Shown in pieces: positions 4,787-19,309 of a stretch of 21,063 nucleotides of DNA; within the stretch, counting starts at the first letter, position 1, and every line of letters begins with the position of its first letter. This stretch comes from a virus: IMG/VR virus record IMGVR_UViG_3300042350_004100, positions 1 through 21,063 of that record; one strand, given 5' to 3'. The notes below the pieces were generated by a model. The model was not told where the DNA came from. It was given only the letters and a program-made list of their open reading frames with translations, and searched no databases. Made by a program: the position numbers and the translations under genes.

Positions 4787-5023
4787 ATGATCACAAAAGA
4801 GAAGGTAGAAGAAGGAAAGGCCGTTTTCTTTTCCCAGGAGTGGGCGGGTACTGCATACACCCAGGGTTCCGCTGAACTTCTTTTCAGTTGGCTATCTGAA
4901 GACACTATTCAAATTGTCAAGGAGGTGCTGGGAGATAGATGCTTCACAGTTCCAGTATCTGATTGGACAGAAATGGATCAGCGTGCTATGAATGTGATTT
5001 GTTGGCTAACCGCTTTTGAATAA
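4787..5023 (+). CDS. Small protein with probable leaderless start
   Basis: The 78-residue product begins MITKEKVEEGKAVFFSQEWA and ends MNVICWLTAFE. It is not recognised. The predicted transcription start coincides with the ATG, so the mRNA is expected to be leaderless, a common mode in actinobacteria. Downstream comes the DnaA-box region, so this is the last gene before the putative origin. A role in replication would be a guess from position only. Confidence 0.65.
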   Translation: MITKEKVEEGKAVFFSQEWAGTAYTQGSAELLFSWLSEDTIQIVKEVLGDRCFTVPVSDWTEMDQRAMNVICWLTAFE

Positions 5024-5026
5024 AAG

Positions 5027-5093
5027 CGGCGCGCGACACCATTTTTATTTTGTCAAGCATATTACGAAGGAATGCAAATTTTCCCAGAATTTT
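5027..5093 (+). repeat. Intergenic module copy C
   Basis: GCGGCGCGCGACACC, TGTCAA (5051-5056), TTACGA (5062-5067) and AAATTTTCCCAGAATTTT (5076-5093) repeat the order seen at 322 and 1609, but without a tRNA upstream. Confidence 0.6.
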
Positions 5094-5095
5094 CT

Positions 5096-5162
5096 GACGC
5101 ACGCCATATTTTAAAAATTAAATAGACATTACGACGGCATAGAAAAAATCCCAGAATTTTTT
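5096..5162 (+). repeat. Intergenic module copy D
   Basis: GACGCACGCC (5096-5105), GACATTACGA (TTACGA at 5129-5134) and AAAAAATCCCAGAATTTTTT (5143-5162) follow copy C directly. Its last part is the left arm of the 11-bp hairpin at 5147-5176. Confidence 0.6.
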
Positions 5163-5176
5163 ACGATTCTGGGATT
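5147..5176 (-). terminator. Perfect 11-bp hairpin with T-run on the minus strand
   Basis: AATCCCAGAAT (5147-5157) and ATTCTGGGATT (5166-5176) are perfect complements around an 8-nt loop. On the minus strand the stem is followed by TTTTCT, as in an intrinsic terminator that would stop leftward transcripts. On the plus strand what follows is A+T-rich without a clear T-run. Confidence 0.55.
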
Positions 5177-5228
5177 AATTATTTTATCCACAAGTTTATC
5201 CACAGGGGGTATTGAATGATATACCCAG

Positions 5229-5259
5229 TATAGTAATACATATAATACCTATAGTAATA
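5229..5259 (+). repeat. Iteron-like repeat TATAGTAATA (two direct copies, plus an inverted copy at 5657-5666)
   Basis: TATAGTAATA is found at 5229-5238 and 5250-5259, exactly 21 bp apart or about two helical turns, and its complement TATTACTATA at 5657-5666. The copies flank the DnaA-box cluster and may bind an initiator or act as part of the unwinding element. Confidence 0.45.
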
Positions 5260-5313
5260 GATACATCATATCCCCGCCCACATTTTATCCACATGCTGTG
5301 GATAACCTTGGGG

Positions 5314-5348
5314 CATATTACGAAGAGTCTATTTTTTCGCAGAATTTT
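5314..5348 (+). repeat. Intergenic module copy E (shortened)
   Basis: CATATTACGA (TTACGA 5318-5323) followed by ATTTTTTCGCAGAATTTT (5331-5348) matches the right half of copies C and D. It lies inside the DnaA-box region. Confidence 0.45.
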
Positions 5349-5419
5349 ACAGAATTAAACAGAATAAAATAAAATGGGGTCATATTTCCTTGGAATATAT
5401 TAAAAGTGTCCCATTTTTC

Positions 5420-5446
5420 TTGACATTACGATGGAGGTGGTATAGT
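5420..5446 (+). promoter_or_regulatory. Possible promoter inside the origin region
   Basis: TTGACA (5420-5425) and TATAGT (5441-5446) are both good matches but only 15 bp apart, which is short for sigma70. The TTACGA motif of the intergenic module lies in the spacer. No gene follows for 350 bp, so a transcript here could be a replication primer or regulatory RNA. Confidence 0.3.
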
Positions 5447-5710
5447 GGCCCATTACACCTAATATATTTTCAAATAGTATGTAGGTCTTTATCCACATTT
5501 TGTGGTTATTTGTCCACAACTTATCCACAAGAATATGGGCCTATGTGGATAAAAAATAGCCAATTCGTGCTGTTAAATACACAATAGCCAAAGAATAGAT
5601 TGCTATCATAAGTGTTTCTTTATTACTCAATTGAATATCCATCCTAGTATACTTACTATTACTATACTGAGAAGGGTAATCGTAAAGCACCCGCCCAGGA
5701 ATGCAGTCAG

Positions 5711-5735
5711 ACAACCTTCGGTTGTTGTATTATTT
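5711..5735 (+). terminator. Hairpin ACAACC-TTC-GGTTGT with T-rich tail
   Basis: The 6-bp stem with a TTCG-type turn (5711-5725) is followed by TGTATTATTTTC. It could end rightward transcripts from the origin region before the oxygenase gene. The rest of 5553-5783 shows no gene; it holds only the inverted iteron copy at 5657. Confidence 0.4.
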
Positions 5736-5783
5736 TCATTCATTCGTATATCTCTTTCTGTGCAAGTGCTGAATATTACCTGA

Positions 5784-5792
5784 TGCTATACT
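5784..5792 (+). promoter_or_regulatory. Extended -10 promoter giving a leaderless mRNA
   Basis: TGCTATACT is an extended -10 box (TGnTATACT). No good -35 is visible at the usual distance. The ATG at 5800 follows after 7 nt, at the expected transcription start, and lacks a ribosome site. Confidence 0.55.
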
Positions 5793-5799
5793 ATACAAC

Positions 5800-6411
5800 A
5801 TGGACGTTATTAAAGTAAATGATTTATTGTCTCAGGAAGATATCAATAAGATGCTTGCAGACTTAAAATCACCGCCAGAAGATAATCAAGGTTTTTCTAT
5901 TTCTAAAGAATTAGGAAGATCTCAGTTCGGAATTCCAGGATTTGATAAAGGCGTAAAAAAGAAGTTATTAAAAATAGCAAACTCAGTATCTGATTTTAAG
6001 TGTGGGTTTTCTGGTGCGTCAGTTACTGAGTATAACCTTAAGTATGGTCAACCTAGACTGCCCCCACATTTTGATGGAGATTGGAGCGATCTGATAATAA
6101 ACTACCAACTGTCATCTAACACTTCATGGAATATGGGAGTTGACTTTAATGTATATGAGATAGAAGATAACTCTGCCCTACTATTCAATCCAAATAAAAC
6201 CGTCCATTGGAGGCCGAGAAAATTATTTAAAGACGGGGAGTTTGTCAAAATGATTTTCTTTAGGTTTCACAAATTAAATAATTCATCAGACTACACTCAT
6301 TTAGGAAATCATTTTCCACACCATAGAATTTTTGAAGATATAAATAAATTTAGAGATAGTGTTTCTGATCCACTATGTGATGATGATATATATCGTGGAC
6401 CTTACGAGTAA
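5800..6411 (+). CDS. 2-oxoglutarate/Fe(II)-dependent oxygenase-like protein (copy 1)
   Basis: The 203-residue product has the metal triad of the 2OG-Fe(II) oxygenase fold: H90 and D92 in LPPHFDGDW, and H136 in KTVHWRPR, with R138 or R140 able to bind 2-oxoglutarate. Strand patterns around these (LIINYQLS, SALLFNPN, VKMIFFRF) fit the double-stranded beta-helix. Such enzymes hydroxylate protein, nucleic-acid or small-molecule substrates; the substrate here is unknown. The start is set by an extended -10 box 7 nt upstream and no ribosome site, so it is probably leaderless. It is the last plus-strand gene, between the candidate origin and the strand switch, and is much more A+T-rich than the left arm, like the right-arm oxygenases. 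Confidence 0.7.
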   Translation: MDVIKVNDLLSQEDINKMLADLKSPPEDNQGFSISKELGRSQFGIPGFDKGVKKKLLKIANSVSDFKCGFSGASVTEYNLKYGQPRLPPHFDGDWSDLIINYQLSSNTSWNMGVDFNVYEIEDNSALLFNPNKTVHWRPRKLFKDGEFVKMIFFRFHKLNNSSDYTHLGNHFPHHRIFEDINKFRDSVSDPLCDDDIYRGPYE

Positions 6412-6419
6412 GTAATTCC

Positions 6420-6530
6420 ACTCACATACTTATCGCATTCTGTGAGTAGTATTGTCTAACGTTATACTGTTTCTTGTTCATCCTCAGGATGATCGTTGTT
6501 ATAGTGTAGGACATTATATATGTACCTACA
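6420..6530. terminator. Convergent-gene junction with three inverted repeats
   Basis: Between the two facing genes lie ACTCACA/TGTGAGT (6420-6426 with 6441-6447), TCATCC-TCA-GGATGA (6478-6492), and TGTAGGACAT-TATAT-ATGTACCTACA (6505-6530, 10 bp with one bulge). The place is right for two-way termination, but no T-run follows any of them, so factor-assisted termination or RNA-end protection is as likely. Confidence 0.4.
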
Positions 6531-6546
6531 AGGAAGGATGCCCATT

Positions 6547-7074
6547 TTAATCCAGCCACCCTTCATCCCCCGCCCACCTGAGAATATCCTCATAGGAATC
6601 CTCAGTTATTATTTTCATGGTGAATAGATAGCGATATTCATCTAGGTTGTAGACTTCGTGCTTTTCCTGTGTGTTAAATATGTATAAGTATTCTGGCTCA
6701 TAGTCAAGTTCTGTGATCTTACTAGTGAATTCAGTCTGGTCTTCTCCAAATACTGTATGGCTGTGACCATTACGATGGAGCAGCATATTTATTGTAAATG
6801 TACGGTCTACGTCTTTATGCCATAGGTATGCAGTACCAGGATCTAGTCTCATAATAATGGCTAATGATTCTGGATACCTCCCCCGTACTGCCTCCAGGAA
6901 CCCCACTTTGCTCCAGATCTCCTCTGGCACAAGGTTTCCAGCAAAGCCCTCAAAGTCCAGCCAGTCCAGTTTAGAGAGCCTAGGAAGGCCATAGAATTTA
7001 GAAATATGACTGGCTGGGGTATTTACCCTAGCATAGTACTTATGCATCTTACTACCAAGAAACCTCATCGTCAT
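6547..7074 (-). CDS. 2OG-Fe(II) oxygenase-like, Asp/Asn beta-hydroxylase type (copy 2)
   Basis: The product, about 175 residues, carries an HxD pair in YLWHKDVDR, a distal His in TQEKHEVYNLDEYRYLF and an Arg nine residues later. The spacing and the HKDVDR...TINMLL...H.VYN...R.LF pattern resemble the cupin-fold aspartyl/asparaginyl hydroxylases. It may act on protein or peptide; the substrate is not evident. The start is uncertain: the frame opens at a TTG (7089), with ATGs at 7074, 7068 and 7047, none with a clear ribosome site; the later ones reduce the overlap with the 37-codon ORF upstream. It is the last gene of the long leftward operon and directly follows another oxygenase gene. Confidence 0.65.
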   Translation of the reverse strand: MTMRFLGSKMHKYYARVNTPASHISKFYGLPRLSKLDWLDFEGFAGNLVPEEIWSKVGFLEAVRGRYPESLAIIMRLDPGTAYLWHKDVDRTFTINMLLHRNGHSHTVFGEDQTEFTSKITELDYEPEYLYIFNTQEKHEVYNLDEYRYLFTMKIITEDSYEDILRWAGDEGWLD

Positions 7075-7165
7075 CTGTGAGTGGGCCAAAATTATCTAAT
7101 GGCACTACCCAATCAATGACCTTATCAACCATAGTATTGACTGCATCTCCTACAAAACTAAACAT
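7052..7165 (-). CDS. Very small acidic-tailed protein
   Basis: This 37-residue ORF (MFSFVGDAVNTMVDKVIDWV... ending DDDEVSW) begins two bases after the TAA of the oxygenase upstream, with AGGAT as a weak ribosome site, and overlaps the start of the next oxygenase. The N-terminal half could form one amphipathic helix. Its position in a gap and its coupled spacing support it; the function is unknown. Confidence 0.5.
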   Translation of the reverse strand: MFSFVGDAVNTMVDKVIDWVVPLDNFGPLTDDDEVSW

Positions 7166-7167
7166 AA

Positions 7168-7743
7168 TTATCCTAACCTTAGTGATTTATTAATAAATTT
7201 ATGACACCAGAAGGTGACAATGGTCTTTCTTTCTCCCTGCGTGATCTCTCTCACACCATGTTCGTGATCTAGGTCACCATAAAAGATGGCAATGCGTCCC
7301 GCCTTGGGCTGAACCTCTAGATCCTTGTTCGTAAAGTATGTTTGACCGCCCTCATAATCATCATTGAGGTACAGTAGCCCAGAATATAGTCTCCATGGGG
7401 TATAGTTGGGCGTGCCATCAGGCTCTGCGTTGTCAGCGTGGGGCGGCTGAAAACTACCCTCTTCCCACTTGACAATCTGCATGGTGTCTGGGTATACGGT
7501 CTGAGTGAGATCGAACTCGTCCATGATTAATTGCTGCATACGCTTGAGAATCTTAATGAACGATCCATATGCTGACCTATCACCCAGTTTGTCCATAATG
7601 TTGGACACATCGAACACTCTGCCTGTCCAGAAATCCATTTCGGTAGATTCCCAGCCTATTTCTTTGTCGATATGTTCATAGAAATTGAGACAGAATTCGA
7701 TCTCTTCTGGGGATAGGAAGTTATCCTTATATAGAACGCTCAT
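7168..7743 (-). CDS. Prolyl-4-hydroxylase-type 2OG-Fe(II) oxygenase (copy 3)
   Basis: The 191-residue product is a clear P4Hc-type oxygenase. It starts with the typical LYKDNFLSPEEIEFC segment, then has H102 and D104 (QPPHADNAE), the GGQTYFTNKDLEVQPKAGR block, H162 (DHEHGVREI) and R172 (GERKTIV) for 2-oxoglutarate. The length and order match stand-alone bacterial and phage prolyl hydroxylases of about 190-200 residues, which act on proline in proteins or on free substrates. Its start overlaps the upstream stop as ATGA. It is adjacent to another oxygenase, and a glycosyltransferase of the type acting on hydroxyproline is encoded at 17476-18471, so protein hydroxylation is the favoured role. 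Confidence 0.88.
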   Translation of the reverse strand: MSVLYKDNFLSPEEIEFCLNFYEHIDKEIGWESTEMDFWTGRVFDVSNIMDKLGDRSAYGSFIKILKRMQQLIMDEFDLTQTVYPDTMQIVKWEEGSFQPPHADNAEPDGTPNYTPWRLYSGLLYLNDDYEGGQTYFTNKDLEVQPKAGRIAIFYGDLDHEHGVREITQGERKTIVTFWCHKFINKSLRLG

Positions 7744-9871: not shown

Positions 9872-10327
9872 TTACTCCCATCCTGGAACTTCTGTAGTTG
9901 GTATATTATTTTCTTCCCATAGTTTGATAATACTTGGATTATCATCCCATGCATGAATTATATCGTATGCCTTGCGTAGCGTGTCAAGCATATCTTTCTT
10001 GACCTGATAGTCTTTTCGGTTATCTTCATCCCCGCGCATCATAAGCATATCGCTAGGAACCTCATGCATGGCAAGCCACCATGCCGTATGATTTCTCCAC
10101 ATGTGCTTTCTTGCAGTAACAACCAGCACAGCATGTCCTAGCATATGTGCAACTTGAGCAGCATTTACTACATGAGTATGCGGAGGAACATTAACTGATT
10201 CAGCATGAAAGTTATCAAAATGCTTAATAACCCTACGCTTACCCTCATCATATTTAGTTAGATAATGACGAATAGACGACACATCTGCAAGCGTGCCGTC
10301 CATATCGAATATGACTGCTGTTTTCAC
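9872..10327 (-). CDS. HAD-family polynucleotide 3'-phosphatase-like (Pnkp phosphatase domain)
   Basis: The 151-residue product is an HAD phosphohydrolase: motif I FDMDGTLAD (nucleophile D8, acid D10), motif II in VVTARKHMW, K109-K110 near YQVKK as motif III, and the DD acid pair in HAWDDNPSI. Features such as H.W.....P.D.L.MR...D.R.D...K fit the C-terminal phosphatase domain of T4 polynucleotide kinase rather than a small-molecule phosphatase. The kinase and ligase domains are absent. It may remove 3'- or 2',3'-cyclic phosphates from DNA or from cleaved tRNA, which would suit a phage with many tRNAs. Its stop is next to a small ORF and its start overlaps the upstream gene by 4 nt. Confidence 0.8.
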   Translation of the reverse strand: MKTAVIFDMDGTLADVSSIRHYLTKYDEGKRRVIKHFDNFHAESVNVPPHTHVVNAAQVAHMLGHAVLVVTARKHMWRNHTAWWLAMHEVPSDMLMMRGDEDNRKDYQVKKDMLDTLRKAYDIIHAWDDNPSIIKLWEENNIPTTEVPGWE

Positions 10328-12047: not shown

Positions 12048-12285
12048 ATTTTATTCCTTCGATCTCACATCTTACTCCAAAGTTTTGAATCATAGATCTT
12101 AATTGAAGTAGGTATTCCATTACTTGCATACGCTTTGATTCAGAAAACTCCATAATGTTATCTTCATGAATAGTTAAGGCTATGTAGTTTGGCCTTTTGC
12201 GTATGTCTACTTTAATTCCTTTAAAGGGTGGCTTGATCTCTCTTAGAGACTTAGCCATCTCTTTTGTGTAAAATACTTGATCCAT
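12040..12285 (-). CDS. Small hypothetical protein
   Basis: The 81-residue product (MDQVFYTKEMAKSLREIKPP...) has the order KPPFKGIKVDIRKRPNYIAL then a helical SKRMQVMEYLLQLRSMIQNF. A strand-then-helix small domain is likely. The function is unknown. It overlaps the WhiB-like gene by 35 nt. Confidence 0.6.
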   Translation of the reverse strand: MDQVFYTKEMAKSLREIKPPFKGIKVDIRKRPNYIALTIHEDNIMEFSESKRMQVMEYLLQLRSMIQNFGVRCEIEGIKYV

Positions 12286-12586
12286 GAATTGATTTCAGCC
12301 TTTTCCAAACCTCTGGTGTTTTGTGCGAGTTGTATTCTTTATCTATTCTTCCTAGGTCTAGATAGACCCCGCCCCACACGCCTCGCTCTTTATTATTTAC
12401 ACCTTCATTATAGCATTGTTTAGATACCGGACAATGAAGGCACATCTCATCGACCTGAGATGCTAAATGCTTATCTGTTTCATAGTCATCGTAAAACATA
12501 TTTATGTCTGCATTTATACATGCAGCCAACTGATACCATTTTAAGTTATCAGCATCTAGCCCAAGTTCATCAATTATATTCGACAT
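12251..12586 (-). CDS. WhiB-like Fe-S transcription factor
   Basis: The product, about 111 residues, has the four cysteines that hold the [4Fe-4S] cluster in WhiB proteins: C23 (LAACINAD), C49 and C52 (MCLHC) and C58 (KQCYNEG), followed by GVWGGVYL, the G(V/I)WGG turn. A basic tail follows. WhiB proteins are limited to actinobacteria and their phages and act with the primary sigma factor; phage copies can suppress host whiB genes. The ATG chosen overlaps the previous gene by 17 nt; the frame is open 33 nt further upstream. It is the strongest single marker of the host phylum here. Confidence 0.9.
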   Translation of the reverse strand: MSNIIDELGLDADNLKWYQLAACINADINMFYDDYETDKHLASQVDEMCLHCPVSKQCYNEGVNNKERGVWGGVYLDLGRIDKEYNSHKTPEVWKRLKSIHGSSILHKRDG

Positions 12587-12803
12587 TTGCTGGGACCTTG
12601 ACCTTCCATGTCCCATCACTTAAGACAGGGTATCTATAAGACATTCCCCATTGACCGCCCTTGAATACGCCGTTCTTTGAAGTATATCCTGATGAATTTG
12701 GAACCCAACGAACAATATCCCATCCATCCCAATAGTAGCCACGGTGAGAACTTGATGAAACAAAGTCATGTGCCTTGGTATAATCTAGCATAATAGTTTT
12801 CAT
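12570..12803 (-). CDS. Small aromatic-rich hypothetical protein
   Basis: The 77-residue product begins MKTIMLDYTKAHDFVSSSSH and contains RGYYWDGWDIVRWVPNSSGY and KGGQWGMSYRYPVLSDGTWK. The Trp/Tyr/Gly-rich strands suggest a small beta domain. The function is unknown. One-base overlap links it with the small ORF upstream. Confidence 0.65.
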   Translation of the reverse strand: MKTIMLDYTKAHDFVSSSSHRGYYWDGWDIVRWVPNSSGYTSKNGVFKGGQWGMSYRYPVLSDGTWKVKVPANVEYN

Positions 12804-14353: not shown

Positions 14354-14362
14354 ATTATATCA
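14354..14362 (-). promoter_or_regulatory. Extended -10 box inside the 3' end of the methyltransferase gene
   Basis: On the minus strand TGATATAAT (14362-14354) is a perfect extended -10. The ATG at 14348 follows after 5 nt. No -35 is visible. This would give a leaderless internal transcript of the gene with the acidic tail. Confidence 0.45.
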
Positions 14363-14882
14363 TGCCAAGTTTACTCACATAGTCATACATAACTATGCCA
14401 CTAGCAGTACCTACATTTAAACTACGGACACTACCAAGTTGAGGGATATAAACAATATCGTCTGCCATACCAAGAGCCATGGGGCTTAGTCCACGCTGCT
14501 CTTCTCCGAATATCATAAAAGTCTCTGGATGCCACTCATATGAAGTAATTGGAATAGCGCCTGGAACATTATCAATAGCAACCCATCTAGCGCCACGAAC
14601 TTGTGGCTCATGTAAATAAATGTTATCTAGGTTTGGAGAATACTTTAAGTGATTATAATGTTGAGTTCCTACTGCGCCACGCTTATCCCACTTCTTGGCT
14701 CCGACAATCCAACATTCTTTAGCCATGAATGCATTGGCATTACGAATTCCTGTAGCCTTATTAAAGTCTCCAGAAAGATTCTCAAATCCTACAAAAAACG
14801 GAAGTCGGCGGGTATCTAGATCAGCCTTGATCTGATCAGTTTCCCATTCCTTGTAGTAATCAATGACATTTTTGTTTGTCAT
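14355..14882 (-). CDS. SpoU/TrmH-family RNA 2'-O-ribose methyltransferase
   Basis: The 175-residue product has the three SPOUT motifs: motif 1 GIRNANAFMAKECWIVG (about 45-61), motif 2 FMIFGEEQRGLS (about 123-134) and motif 3 IPQLGSVRSLNVGTASGIVM (about 146-165), where the SAM-binding knot forms. The length matches TrmL/TrmH-type enzymes without extra RNA-binding domain. The substrate is probably a tRNA, perhaps a phage one, given six tRNA genes downstream in the same strand, but an rRNA target cannot be excluded. AGGAG lies 5 nt before the ATG. Confidence 0.88.
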   Translation of the reverse strand: MTNKNVIDYYKEWETDQIKADLDTRRLPFFVGFENLSGDFNKATGIRNANAFMAKECWIVGAKKWDKRGAVGTQHYNHLKYSPNLDNIYLHEPQVRGARWVAIDNVPGAIPITSYEWHPETFMIFGEEQRGLSPMALGMADDIVYIPQLGSVRSLNVGTASGIVMYDYVSKLGMI

Positions 14883-14890
14883 TATGTCTC

Positions 14891-15595
14891 CTAGCGACTA
14901 GTATCTTCTATTGTCTTACTTATATTATACCTATTCTTCTTATGTTTCTTCCAGAAATTTTTTTTCGAAACAAACCCTGGTATAACATATCTATGTGGCC
15001 CTGGTCCTGGAGAATTTACTCCATGTCTCCAGTTTTCGCTGGTAGGGAATACTAGTATAGAATTTTTTGGAGGGCGCAACTCTATTTTTTGATTAACAAA
15101 AAATACTTCCCCATCTGTATATTCATCATTCAAATAGAAAACTACGGCATACTCTAGAGATGGGTCCGTATGATTATCTACATGATCTTTTAACGGTACA
15201 CCCTCATATTGTCTTTGTATTGTGCCACACCCATTAAATTGGATATCACTTCTGAAGTCAAATAATCTTTGGCATCTTTTTTTTAAGATGTTGGAAATTT
15301 TGTGATCACTTATTCTTAAATTTTTATCATGCCAATTATCTGTTATTTCATACAGACCCTGGCTAACTAAACTATCAAGATCACTCGTTCCAAACTTGCG
15401 CTCCGCGAGTTTTTGAACACCAAACATATACTCATGACACCATTCTTCATGATTAGCGTTCATTGCTAATTTTACTAATTCTTCAGACTCGTCCTCTTTA
15501 ATAAAATTTTTTATTAAAAATATTCTATAGTCTAACTCTTCTACCTCGTATCCAAGTTTTTCTATATAACTCTTAGTTAATATTTTTTCTGACAT
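14891..15595 (-). CDS. 2OG-Fe(II) oxygenase (copy 4)
   Basis: The 234-residue product has H138 and D140 (KDHVDNHTD), H191 (ENWRHGVNS) and R202 (GPHRYVIPG), with strand patterns YAVVFYLNDEYTDGEVFF and LRPPKNSILVFPTS typical of the P4H-like fold. It begins with about 120 residues that include LIKNFIKEDESEELV, the usual first helix. The substrate is unknown. The start overlaps the upstream stop by one base. The gene is more A+T-rich than the proline-hydroxylase-like copy at 7168, and its N-terminus is longer, so it is not a recent duplicate. Confidence 0.83.
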   Translation of the reverse strand: MSEKILTKSYIEKLGYEVEELDYRIFLIKNFIKEDESEELVKLAMNANHEEWCHEYMFGVQKLAERKFGTSDLDSLVSQGLYEITDNWHDKNLRISDHKISNILKKRCQRLFDFRSDIQFNGCGTIQRQYEGVPLKDHVDNHTDPSLEYAVVFYLNDEYTDGEVFFVNQKIELRPPKNSILVFPTSENWRHGVNSPGPGPHRYVIPGFVSKKNFWKKHKKNRYNISKTIEDTSR

Positions 15596-17302: not shown

Positions 17303-17320
17303 ATTATTATTATACCATTG

Positions 17321-17392
17321 CTGGCGTGGAAGGATTCGAACCTTCAACCTATCGGTTAACAGCCGATTGCGCTGCCGTTGCGCTACACGCCA
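17321..17392 (-). tRNA. tRNA-Asn (GTT)
   Basis: Acceptor TGGCGTG/CACGCCA, anticodon stem ATCGG/CCGAT with loop CTGTTAA (anticodon GTT), T-arm with TTCGAAT, discriminator G. It is separated from tRNA-Tyr by only 4 nt. Confidence 0.93.
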
Positions 17393-17396
17393 TAAG

Positions 17397-17475
17397 TGCC
17401 AGATGAGAGAATCGAACTCCCCATGCTTTCGCGGGTGATTTACAGTCACCTTCCCCACCTTGGGGACTATCTGGC
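17397..17475 (-). tRNA. tRNA-Tyr (GTA)
   Basis: Acceptor GCCAGAT/ATCTGGC, D-stem TCCCC/GGGGA, anticodon stem GGTGA/TCACC with loop CTGTAAA (anticodon GTA), a long variable arm as expected for tyrosine, T-arm GGGAG-TTCGATT-CTCTC, discriminator A. Its first base directly follows the stop codon of the glycosyltransferase gene. Confidence 0.92.
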
Positions 17476-18471
17476 TTATATTATTGTGTCTTTACATGCT
17501 AGATTATATACCATATCATACAATGCTGTCCATACATCATTGTCAGAAAATGAATTTTCCATTACTGCTGTTACTATCTGATATAAATCTTCATCGTCCT
17601 TTGCCCCTAGTCTGTCTATTAAGATATCTAGGCTTAACCCTGAGGCACTCTTGTATTCTTCTAAAGATTTTTTATCTGGCGCTCCGCGTGGTCCGATGTA
17701 ATTTCCAGTTATTACATCAAGAATCATCCTTGCATCTGCGACAGTTCTTTCTGTACTAAAATTTACCTTCCAGTCATCCTCAGGTCTAACTGTGTACTTA
17801 GAAAGATGATACATTGGATTTAAATTTATAGCAACTATTTTATACCCTCTTGTAATGTATCTTAATGCAAGTAGTGGCTCCTCTGCTATAAAGAAAATTT
17901 CTTCATCAAAGGGTACGGCTAATAAATTTTTTGTGTACCCGAACATAAAGTGACAACTCAAAGAATGGTGTACCTCGTATTCGTGATCACCAATAAAATC
18001 CTGCGCCTTTGCTACCAGACCATCAATTCTTAGTTTCCACGGCGGCATCTTACTAGTAACAGGATCAATGACTAATCTATTTTCTTCTATCAATGCCCAA
18101 TGAAGGGACTGAGAAATTATAGTATTTTCGCCCAAGTCCTGTGCTATTTCATTGTACCTAGTAACCAGTTCTCTATCCCAGTTCTTTATGAACAAAGTGT
18201 GCGAGTCTATACTAAGAAAATATTTCTCTGCCCCAACCATTTCAAGTAGCATACTCCTAGCCATGCCTATGCCAAGCGGCTGTGGCGTATGAATCTTCTT
18301 TACTGAAATTATTTCTGTATCTTGAATGTCTGAGAAGTATCCAGATAGGCTTTGCTCTAAAATTGCAAACTTAATAACGTAGTCTCCGCTACTCATAGAT
18401 AAAGCACTATCTATTGTCTGATCCATAAACTTTTCATCTAATGCTGGGAAAAGTATTAGTATCTCATCCAC
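17476..18471 (-). CDS. GT60-like (Skp1 GlcNAc-transferase family, PF11397 type) glycosyltransferase
   Basis: The product, about 331 residues, has the layout of the GlcNAc family (PF11397): an N-terminal nucleotide-sugar strand, GIGMARSMLLEMVGAEKYFL, the DxH-type metal motif FLSIDSHTLFIKNWD, a central CHFMFGYTKNLLAVPFDEEIFFIAEEP.LALR.ITRGYKI block containing the catalytic-region acids, and MYHLSKYTVRPEDD. Known members transfer GlcNAc from UDP-GlcNAc to hydroxyproline of Skp1. The start is a GTG overlapping the stop of the upstream oxygenase gene by one base (TAGTG), with GGAGG 11 nt before; a GTG 18 nt earlier is also open. This places a hydroxylase and a hydroxyproline-type transferase in one translational unit. 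The C-terminal ~90 residues are not recognised. Confidence 0.78.
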   Translation of the reverse strand: MDEILILFPALDEKFMDQTIDSALSMSSGDYVIKFAILEQSLSGYFSDIQDTEIISVKKIHTPQPLGIGMARSMLLEMVGAEKYFLSIDSHTLFIKNWDRELVTRYNEIAQDLGENTIISQSLHWALIEENRLVIDPVTSKMPPWKLRIDGLVAKAQDFIGDHEYEVHHSLSCHFMFGYTKNLLAVPFDEEIFFIAEEPLLALRYITRGYKIVAINLNPMYHLSKYTVRPEDDWKVNFSTERTVADARMILDVITGNYIGPRGAPDKKSLEEYKSASGLSLDILIDRLGAKDDEDLYQIVTAVMENSFSDNDVWTALYDMVYNLACKDTII

Positions 18472-19235
18472 TAAAAGTACACCCTCCACATTCCATCACA
18501 CAGTACTGAGTGTCCCTGTAGTGTAATTCTTCTATCATCTAAATAGTATTTGTATAGGGGCGGGACCTGATGATATAGATTTCCAGAAAATATAAATATC
18601 CCGCCCTCTTGATAGGGTACAACACTAGGCTCTTCTATATCTCTTCCCTTATAAAATCCATTATCTCTTAAATCTATTTCAAATGGTTGGGATGTTTCGT
18701 ATTTTTTAAGAGATGTGTCACACCATAGGCTTAACCCACTACCAACACTTGGTAATTTAAGAGAGAGTGTAAAAGAAAAATTATCTTCTAAATCTACTAT
18801 CTTATACTTTTCATTAAGAACGTCAAGGTGGTAGTTATAGATATGATCCTGGTGCCTACTATATAGATAGTCACTAGGAAACTCTAGATAAGTTAATTCG
18901 TGTGCCCTAGTTTCATCACCCATAATATTAAATCCTGGGTATGCAAGGGAGTCCTCAAGGACGGCTGGACCTATGTATTCCTCTATACAACTTAAAACTT
19001 TATCATATAGATCCGAAAAGTTTTCTAAAAGAATTCTATTATAGTAGTTCTTTATTTTATAATAAGCCTTTGTGTTCTCCTTAGCATCAAGATACGACGC
19101 CGCACCTAGTAGGTAGTATGGCATAGACAAACTTTCATCACGGTGAGTTCTCCACTCGCTCCGCAAAGACGTAAGCCTGGTGAGGTACTCTTGAATCTCG
19201 TCTTCAGAGAGTAACTGTACTAAGGTTGGTTCCAC
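18471..19235 (-). CDS. 2OG-Fe(II) oxygenase-like protein coupled to the glycosyltransferase (copy 5)
   Basis: The 254-residue product carries H128 and D130 (YSRHQDHIYNY), H222 (GNLYHQVPP) and R235/R236 (LDDRRITLQGH) at the spacing of the 2OG-Fe(II) oxygenase core; SFTLSLKLP and GGIFIFSG are the flanking strands. The start is a GTG only one base after the tRNA-Arg 3' end and without a ribosome site; the next ATG would cut off the first helix (LLSEDEIQEYL). The TAG overlaps the GTG of the glycosyltransferase gene, so the two are coupled and probably act on the same target, one hydroxylating, one adding sugar. The substrate is unknown. Confidence 0.72.
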   Translation of the reverse strand: MEPTLVQLLSEDEIQEYLTRLTSLRSEWRTHRDESLSMPYYLLGAASYLDAKENTKAYYKIKNYYNRILLENFSDLYDKVLSCIEEYIGPAVLEDSLAYPGFNIMGDETRAHELTYLEFPSDYLYSRHQDHIYNYHLDVLNEKYKIVDLEDNFSFTLSLKLPSVGSGLSLWCDTSLKKYETSQPFEIDLRDNGFYKGRDIEEPSVVPYQEGGIFIFSGNLYHQVPPLYKYYLDDRRITLQGHSVLCDGMWRVYF

Positions 19236-19236
19236 G

Positions 19237-19309
19237 CGCCCCAGGCAGGATTCGAACCTGCGACCAACGGATTAGAAGTCCGACACTCTATCCTCTGAGT
19301 TACTGGGGC
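19237..19309 (-). tRNA. tRNA-Arg (TCT)
   Basis: Acceptor GCCCCAG/CTGGGGC, anticodon stem TCGGA/TCCGT (a T-T mismatch at 27-43) with loop CTTCTAA (anticodon TCT), T-arm GCAGG-TTCGAAT-CCTGC, discriminator G. Its first ten bases overlap the end of the upstream coding region. Confidence 0.9.

Follow-up and report, generated by a model that had tools for sequence, protein, structure and literature searches.

A gene pair between two tRNA genes

The DNA analysed here, referred to as the window, is a 21,063-base viral record from IMG/VR, and the gene pair that it carries comes from a freshwater bacterial virus. The window carries, on its minus strand, an oxygenase-like gene and a glycosyltransferase-like gene that overlap as TAGTG, as the earlier note had described (Table 1; the sequence at the overlap is TTTTAGTGGATGAG). 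Through this overlap, the two proteins are probably co-expressed and translationally coupled. Both flanking tRNA genes abut the pair, and thus the pair occupies exactly the gap between them.

Table 1. The gene pair, its junction and its borders in the window
Feature	Coordinates	Strand	Remarks
2OG/Fe(II) oxygenase-like protein, phrog_24927 family	18471..19235	-	254 aa, GTG start; WelO5-like fold (predicted); H128/D130, H222, R236
GT60-like (PF11397) GT-A glycosyltransferase	17476..18471	-	331 aa from GTG inside TAGTG; D89-S90-H91 metal motif, H222
TAGTG junction	18469..18473	-	oxygenase TAG stop and transferase GTG start, one base in common
Alternative transferase GTG start, upstream	18487..18489	-	gives 337 aa
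tRNA-Arg (tct)	19236..19309	-	3' end abuts oxygenase GTG start; upstream cassette border; arrangement also in L003
tRNA-Tyr (gta)	17396..17475	-	begins one base past transferase stop; downstream cassette border

The same pair is found with 100% identity in two further IMG/VR contigs, and a third contig encodes both proteins in the same order at 56–59% identity. On these grounds, we rejected the idea that the open reading frames are spurious. In L003, the 58%-identical contig, the junction is deleted and both reading frames are truncated, reflecting either a real loss or an assembly fault.

Two start codons in the window stand directly at tRNA 3' ends, GTG 19235 at tRNA-Arg (19235/19236) and ATG 15906 at tRNA-Thr (15906/15907), and both arrangements are also kept in L003. 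A third start codon, ATG 19968, lies three bases past tRNA-Gly (19968/19972). Processing of the tRNAs could yield leaderless mRNAs from genes that start at tRNA 3' ends, and actinobacteria translate leaderless mRNAs well.

Several features point to an actinobacterial host and to an actinophage with relatives among the Streptomyces phages. The terminase of one contig with the identical pair shares ∼62% identity with terminases of ∼128-kb Streptomyces phages such as Gilson, the window protein at 459–1454 shares ∼57% identity with one encoded by phages such as Bmoc, and we read a WhiB-like sequence, without a NCBIfam profile match, at 12251–12619 (-). The window also encodes a SpoU-type RNA methylase (14355–14882, -) and a PNKP-like HAD phosphatase (9872–10327, -).

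Up to five 2OG-oxygenase-like genes lie within these 21 kb: 5800–6411 (+), 6547–7089 (-), 7168–7743 (-), 14891–15595 (-) and the oxygenase of the pair. The genes at 7168 and 14891 match PF13640, and those at 5800 and 6547 are candidates by HxD motif only. A homologue of the 5800 gene is encoded two genes after GT60 in L062/L064. The earlier note had tied a P4H-like gene at 7168 to the pair. That gene does resemble solved prolyl hydroxylases (P3H1, 1e-9; bacterial P4H, 1e-4) and is the window's candidate for an ordinary prolyl hydroxylase, but it lies 10 kb away and we found nothing that connects it with the pair.

Families and folds of the two proteins

In Pfam, the transferase scores 53.2 bits (E 4e-14) for PF11397 (GlcNAc, GT60 family), for which the cut-off is 21; its score for the general GT2 family is just 16.3. 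This match is of partial length, spanning profile positions 98–277 of 352; the homologue of phage RAS14 matches positions 1–350, and the homologue in L003 scores 63 bits. NCBIfam gave no match for either protein of the pair, and a PDB sequence search gave none for the transferase, whether the query was the single sequence or a profile. Phage relatives of the transferase are numerous, with at least 571 candidates in IMG/VR. Among 26 aligned phage sequences, D89-S90-H91 is invariant (26/26), and E197, E198 and H222 are kept in at least 90%.

In the structure model of the transferase (mean pLDDT 85), the best solved matches are polypeptide GalNAc-transferases of family GT27 (Foldseek E 4e-10), and VIA aligned 269 residues with a GT27 GalNAc-transferase at Z 20.9 and rmsd 3.7. 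The protein thus has the GT60 traits of a GT-A fold related to GT27 and a DxH metal motif. A Pfam scan of the 331 residues found no C-terminal ricin-type lectin domain, unlike in metazoan GT27, and GT60 enzymes in general differ from metazoan GT27 in this same respect (PMC8724618). Collectively, these data support the earlier note's description of the gene as GT60-like and the prediction of a GT60-like enzyme of the polypeptide O-glycosyltransferase type. One caveat here is that TarP, a teichoic-acid enzyme, comes next in Foldseek, and RmlT and other polymer transferases match as well; hence, the fold alone does not fix the acceptor. Nor does GT60 membership imply hydroxyproline, since the family holds both the Skp1 hydroxyproline GlcNAc-transferase and mucin-type Ser/Thr alpha-GlcNAc-transferases, and many of its enzymes are of the latter kind, needing no hydroxyproline (PMC8724618).

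The oxygenase is a member of phrog_24927 (E 1.4e-35), a family without an assigned function; its match to phrog_81 (2OG-Fe(II) oxygenase) is weak. At E ≤ 1 it matches nothing in Pfam, including the P4H-type PF13640, the WelO5 profile PF22814 and the Tet_JBP profile PF12851. H128, D130 and H222 are invariant across the 30 rows of a family alignment, and R236 is kept in 28; the damaged copy in L003 is without this arginine. This HxD...H...R signature, corresponding to the iron triad and the 2OG-binding Arg, together with the WelO5 matches described below, supports assignment as a 2OG/Fe(II) oxygenase, in agreement with the earlier note.

Both a PDB profile search and Foldseek give WelO5 as the closest solved fold of the oxygenase. 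VIA, applied to a low-confidence model (pLDDT 64), returned Z scores of 13.9 for WelO5, 8.6 for the prolyl hydroxylase PHD2 and about 9 for AlkB-family enzymes. A relative of the oxygenase in contig L140 matches PF22814 over residues 7–232 (E 1.3e-4) below the cut-off, and the best family member scanned reached 22 bits against a gathering score of 27. WelO5 is a 2OG halogenase acting on small molecules, in which HxG replaces HxD to form the halide site. The oxygenase does not fit a WelO5-type halogenase: HxD rather than HxG is present in 30/30 rows and the PF22814 scores stay below gathering. Given that HxD is kept throughout the phage family, hydroxylation is the expected chemistry. The more specific proposal of a P4H/PhyA-type prolyl hydroxylase fared poorly, as the P4H profile is unmatched and the model, albeit of low confidence, is nearer WelO5. 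A pattern scan of 84,980 cellular genomes gave no confirmed relative, and so the family appears, within the sensitivity of that scan, to be phage-only. Contig L124 contains a tandem pair of family members (4989–6580, +), the second very divergent.

Distribution and neighbours in other phages

Closely related phages differ in whether they have the pair. L140, a relative whose terminase is 97% identical, encodes an oxygenase that shares just 40% identity and has no GT60 beside it; this gene sits in an adjacent gap, which separates the tRNA cluster from the gene that follows. Both genes are missing from L138/G008, a relative of 103.8 kb. Since close relatives are without the pair or have the oxygenase alone, we regard the pair as an optional cassette. 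The tRNA-Arg/Tyr/Asn cluster is an insertion hotspot (L138:14366–15386, L140:10177–11177, L141:6030–6462 and 17320–19309 in the window). Where terminases are at least 96% identical, the slot contains both genes, the oxygenase alone, a weakly FkbM-like gene or nothing.

For most other members of the oxygenase family, GT60 is absent altogether or none lies nearby. Contigs L017–L019 have the oxygenase without GT60, and the complete genome of P-HM2, which has the oxygenase family, lacks a PF11397 gene. P-HM2 and L140, together with the many GT60 enzymes that need no hydroxyproline, argue against an obligate form of the two-step series that the earlier note suggested.

A second association emerged in a separate, well-supported clade of the oxygenase tree (L107, L109, L110 and L113), where a GT11-like glycosyltransferase gene lies directly downstream, 18 bases past the oxygenase stop (PF01531 4e-10, up to 39.9 bits versus a cut-off of 23.9; phrog_2644 about 1e-34 to 1e-33). 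As GT60 and the unrelated GT11 both follow the same oxygenase family, it follows that the order of oxygenase then glycosyltransferase arose at least twice. Among the 25 most frequent Pfam families listed for 110 other genes near oxygenases, there is no glycosyltransferase. The gene after the oxygenase in L106/L115 showed no significant similarity to the four GT11-like proteins in a profile comparison; its best match is a weak one to O-FucT (0.016), and it was not counted as a glycosyltransferase.

We then considered the neighbours of GT60 at 41 non-redundant phage loci. Six Pro/Thr/Ser-rich repeat proteins are encoded at most two genes from GT60, all of them upstream and on the same strand, with 68–83% P+T+S over 60 residues. 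Such proteins account for 6/155 genes near GT60 compared to 0/263 farther away (one-sided Fisher p = 0.0024). The loci with GT60 just downstream of these candidate glycosylation substrates are L042, L047, L072, L077, L097 and L007. Also common near GT60 are genes for FkbM methyltransferases, GDP-mannose dehydratase, UDP-galactopyranose mutase, GT25 and GT2. The GT60 genes of XacN1/RAS14 lie near DNA polymerase and carbamoyltransferase. The 25 families seen most often among 142 GT60 neighbours include no 2OG family, and most GT60 loci have no adjoining 2OG gene. On a contig of the window's own phage, a GT32 transferase (PF04488, 2e-16) and an FkbM methyltransferase (1e-13) are encoded upstream of the terminase. 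Because phage GT60 genes adjoin Pro/Thr-rich repeat proteins and glycan genes, the genomic context favours protein O-glycosylation, probably of a structural target, over DNA modification. No Pro/Thr-rich protein was found in the window or in G001/G002. A 58%-related contig encodes one that is absent from the window (L101:1073–1642, -), with an apparent N-terminal membrane segment, PTPTPTEPT repeats and 86% P+T+S.

A possible pathway, its rivals and known systems

We tentatively interpret the pair as an optional cassette whose products decorate a protein, probably one of the virion, with the hydroxylase and the GT60-like transferase in one pathway; we give this reading a little less than an even chance. 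A mobile, dispensable two-gene unit would have inserted between actinophage tRNA genes, and its products, co-expressed and co-translated across the TAGTG, would act on a common substrate, most likely a virion or surface protein of the phage. The hydroxylase would place a hydroxyl on the acceptor, either on a side chain or, less likely, on the glycan, and the transferase would then attach a sugar from a nucleotide-sugar donor. The glycan might perhaps be extended by the GT32 transferase and methylated by the FkbM methyltransferase encoded nearby. Against a single pathway stand the oxygenases that mostly occur without GT60, the rarity of GT60 next to a 2OG gene, the resemblance (in a weak model) to WelO5, whose substrates are small molecules, the TarP match, the partial-length PF11397 match and the lack of a Pro/Thr-rich protein in the window.

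Much the same observations bear on a somewhat unlikely alternative, in which two independent accessory genes share a transcript, the GT60-like enzyme alone O-glycosylating Thr/Ser of a phage protein in mucin-like fashion and the oxygenase acting elsewhere. Consistent with independence are the oxygenases without GT60 in P-HM2, L017–L019 and L140, the missing 2OG neighbour at most GT60 loci, the Ser/Thr transferases within GT60 (PMC8724618) and the different cassettes that relatives have in the same insertion slot. Against it stand the TAGTG overlap, the gene order kept at 58% identity and, in a further clade, the position of the oxygenase gene immediately before a GT11 transferase, which is unrelated to GT60.

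Modification of a glycan or cell-wall polymer, either on the host surface or in a phage-made polysaccharide, is improbable. Here, the transferase would add sugar to the polymer and the oxygenase would hydroxylate a sugar or lipid. The resemblance to TarP, RmlT and other polymer transferases fits this idea, as do the GDP-mannose dehydratase, UDP-galactopyranose mutase and GT25 genes near phage GT60, but polypeptide transferases head the fold matches, and phage GT60 genes have Pro/Thr-rich repeat proteins next to them. DNA hypermodification as in TET/JBP phages, in which a base is hydroxylated and then glycosylated, is very improbable: phage DNA is known to undergo oxidation and then glycosylation, the XacN1/RAS14 GT60 genes have DNA polymerase and carbamoyltransferase nearby and the oxygenase model also resembles AlkB-family enzymes, but Tet_JBP is unmatched, the transferase fold is nearest polypeptide transferases and none of the genes beside the pair was recognised as base-modifying. 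We likewise hold out little prospect for a true Skp1-like series, with prolyl 4-hydroxylation by the oxygenase and then alpha-GlcNAc onto hydroxyproline; the inclusion of the Skp1 enzyme in GT60 (PMC8724618), the gene order and the PTPTPTEPT-repeat protein of the 58%-related contig are in line with it, whereas the oxygenase has neither a P4H profile match nor, in its low-confidence model, a fold nearer PHD2 than WelO5, and the P4H-like gene lies elsewhere.

Returning to the hydroxylate-then-glycosylate reading, a broader version of it is speculative and, on balance, unlikely: phage-only hydroxylases of phrog_24927 may prepare acceptor sites on phage proteins and have been paired independently with the unrelated GT60 and GT11, as a general strategy of bacterial viruses. 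To our knowledge, hydroxylation followed by glycosylation has previously been described only for eukaryotes and giant viruses. In the literature searched, phages are known to glycosylate proteins, but no hydroxylase dedicated to this process is described; we found no papers linking GT60 with phages, and none relevant to a phage prolyl hydroxylase with hydroxyproline and a glycosyltransferase. If correct, our reading would provide a function for a phage oxygenase family without an assigned role, suggest a role for GT60 outside eukaryotes and offer small, separate enzymes for making hydroxylated glycopeptides.

Among known systems, PhyA/Gnt1 of Dictyostelium and Toxoplasma, which act on Skp1, were the basis of the analogy drawn in the earlier note. 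The transferase family and the gene order uphold that analogy, in that genes for a 2OG oxygenase and a GT60-family transferase adjoin and the same order of activities is conceivable; the oxygenase family does not, being unlike P4H by profile and, in a weak model, by fold. We know of no Skp1 in bacteria. WelO5 (PF22814) resembles the oxygenase in fold, again by the weak model, and differs in its halogenase HxG motif. The Prochlorococcus myoviruses P-HM1, P-HM2 and MED4-213 encode phrog_24927 oxygenases that are 35–37% identical and have the same catalytic residues; these are annotated as hypothetical proteins only, and the P-HM2 genome has no GT60. Mycobacteriophage-encoded glycosylation decorates capsid and tail proteins (Freeman et al. 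2023, as cited in PMC12619734). Those are also actinophages, and the window's phage group has GT32 and FkbM genes as well; the passage of PMC12619734 on these phages does not mention an oxygenase partner. Finally, Mimivirus L230, a bifunctional collagen lysyl hydroxylase and glucosyltransferase, is a published viral precedent for hydroxylating and then glycosylating a viral protein (PMC9546862). L230 is a single fused protein acting on collagen lysine, whereas the pair described here consists of two unfused proteins from different families that would carry out a comparable sequence of reactions on what we infer to be a protein target.
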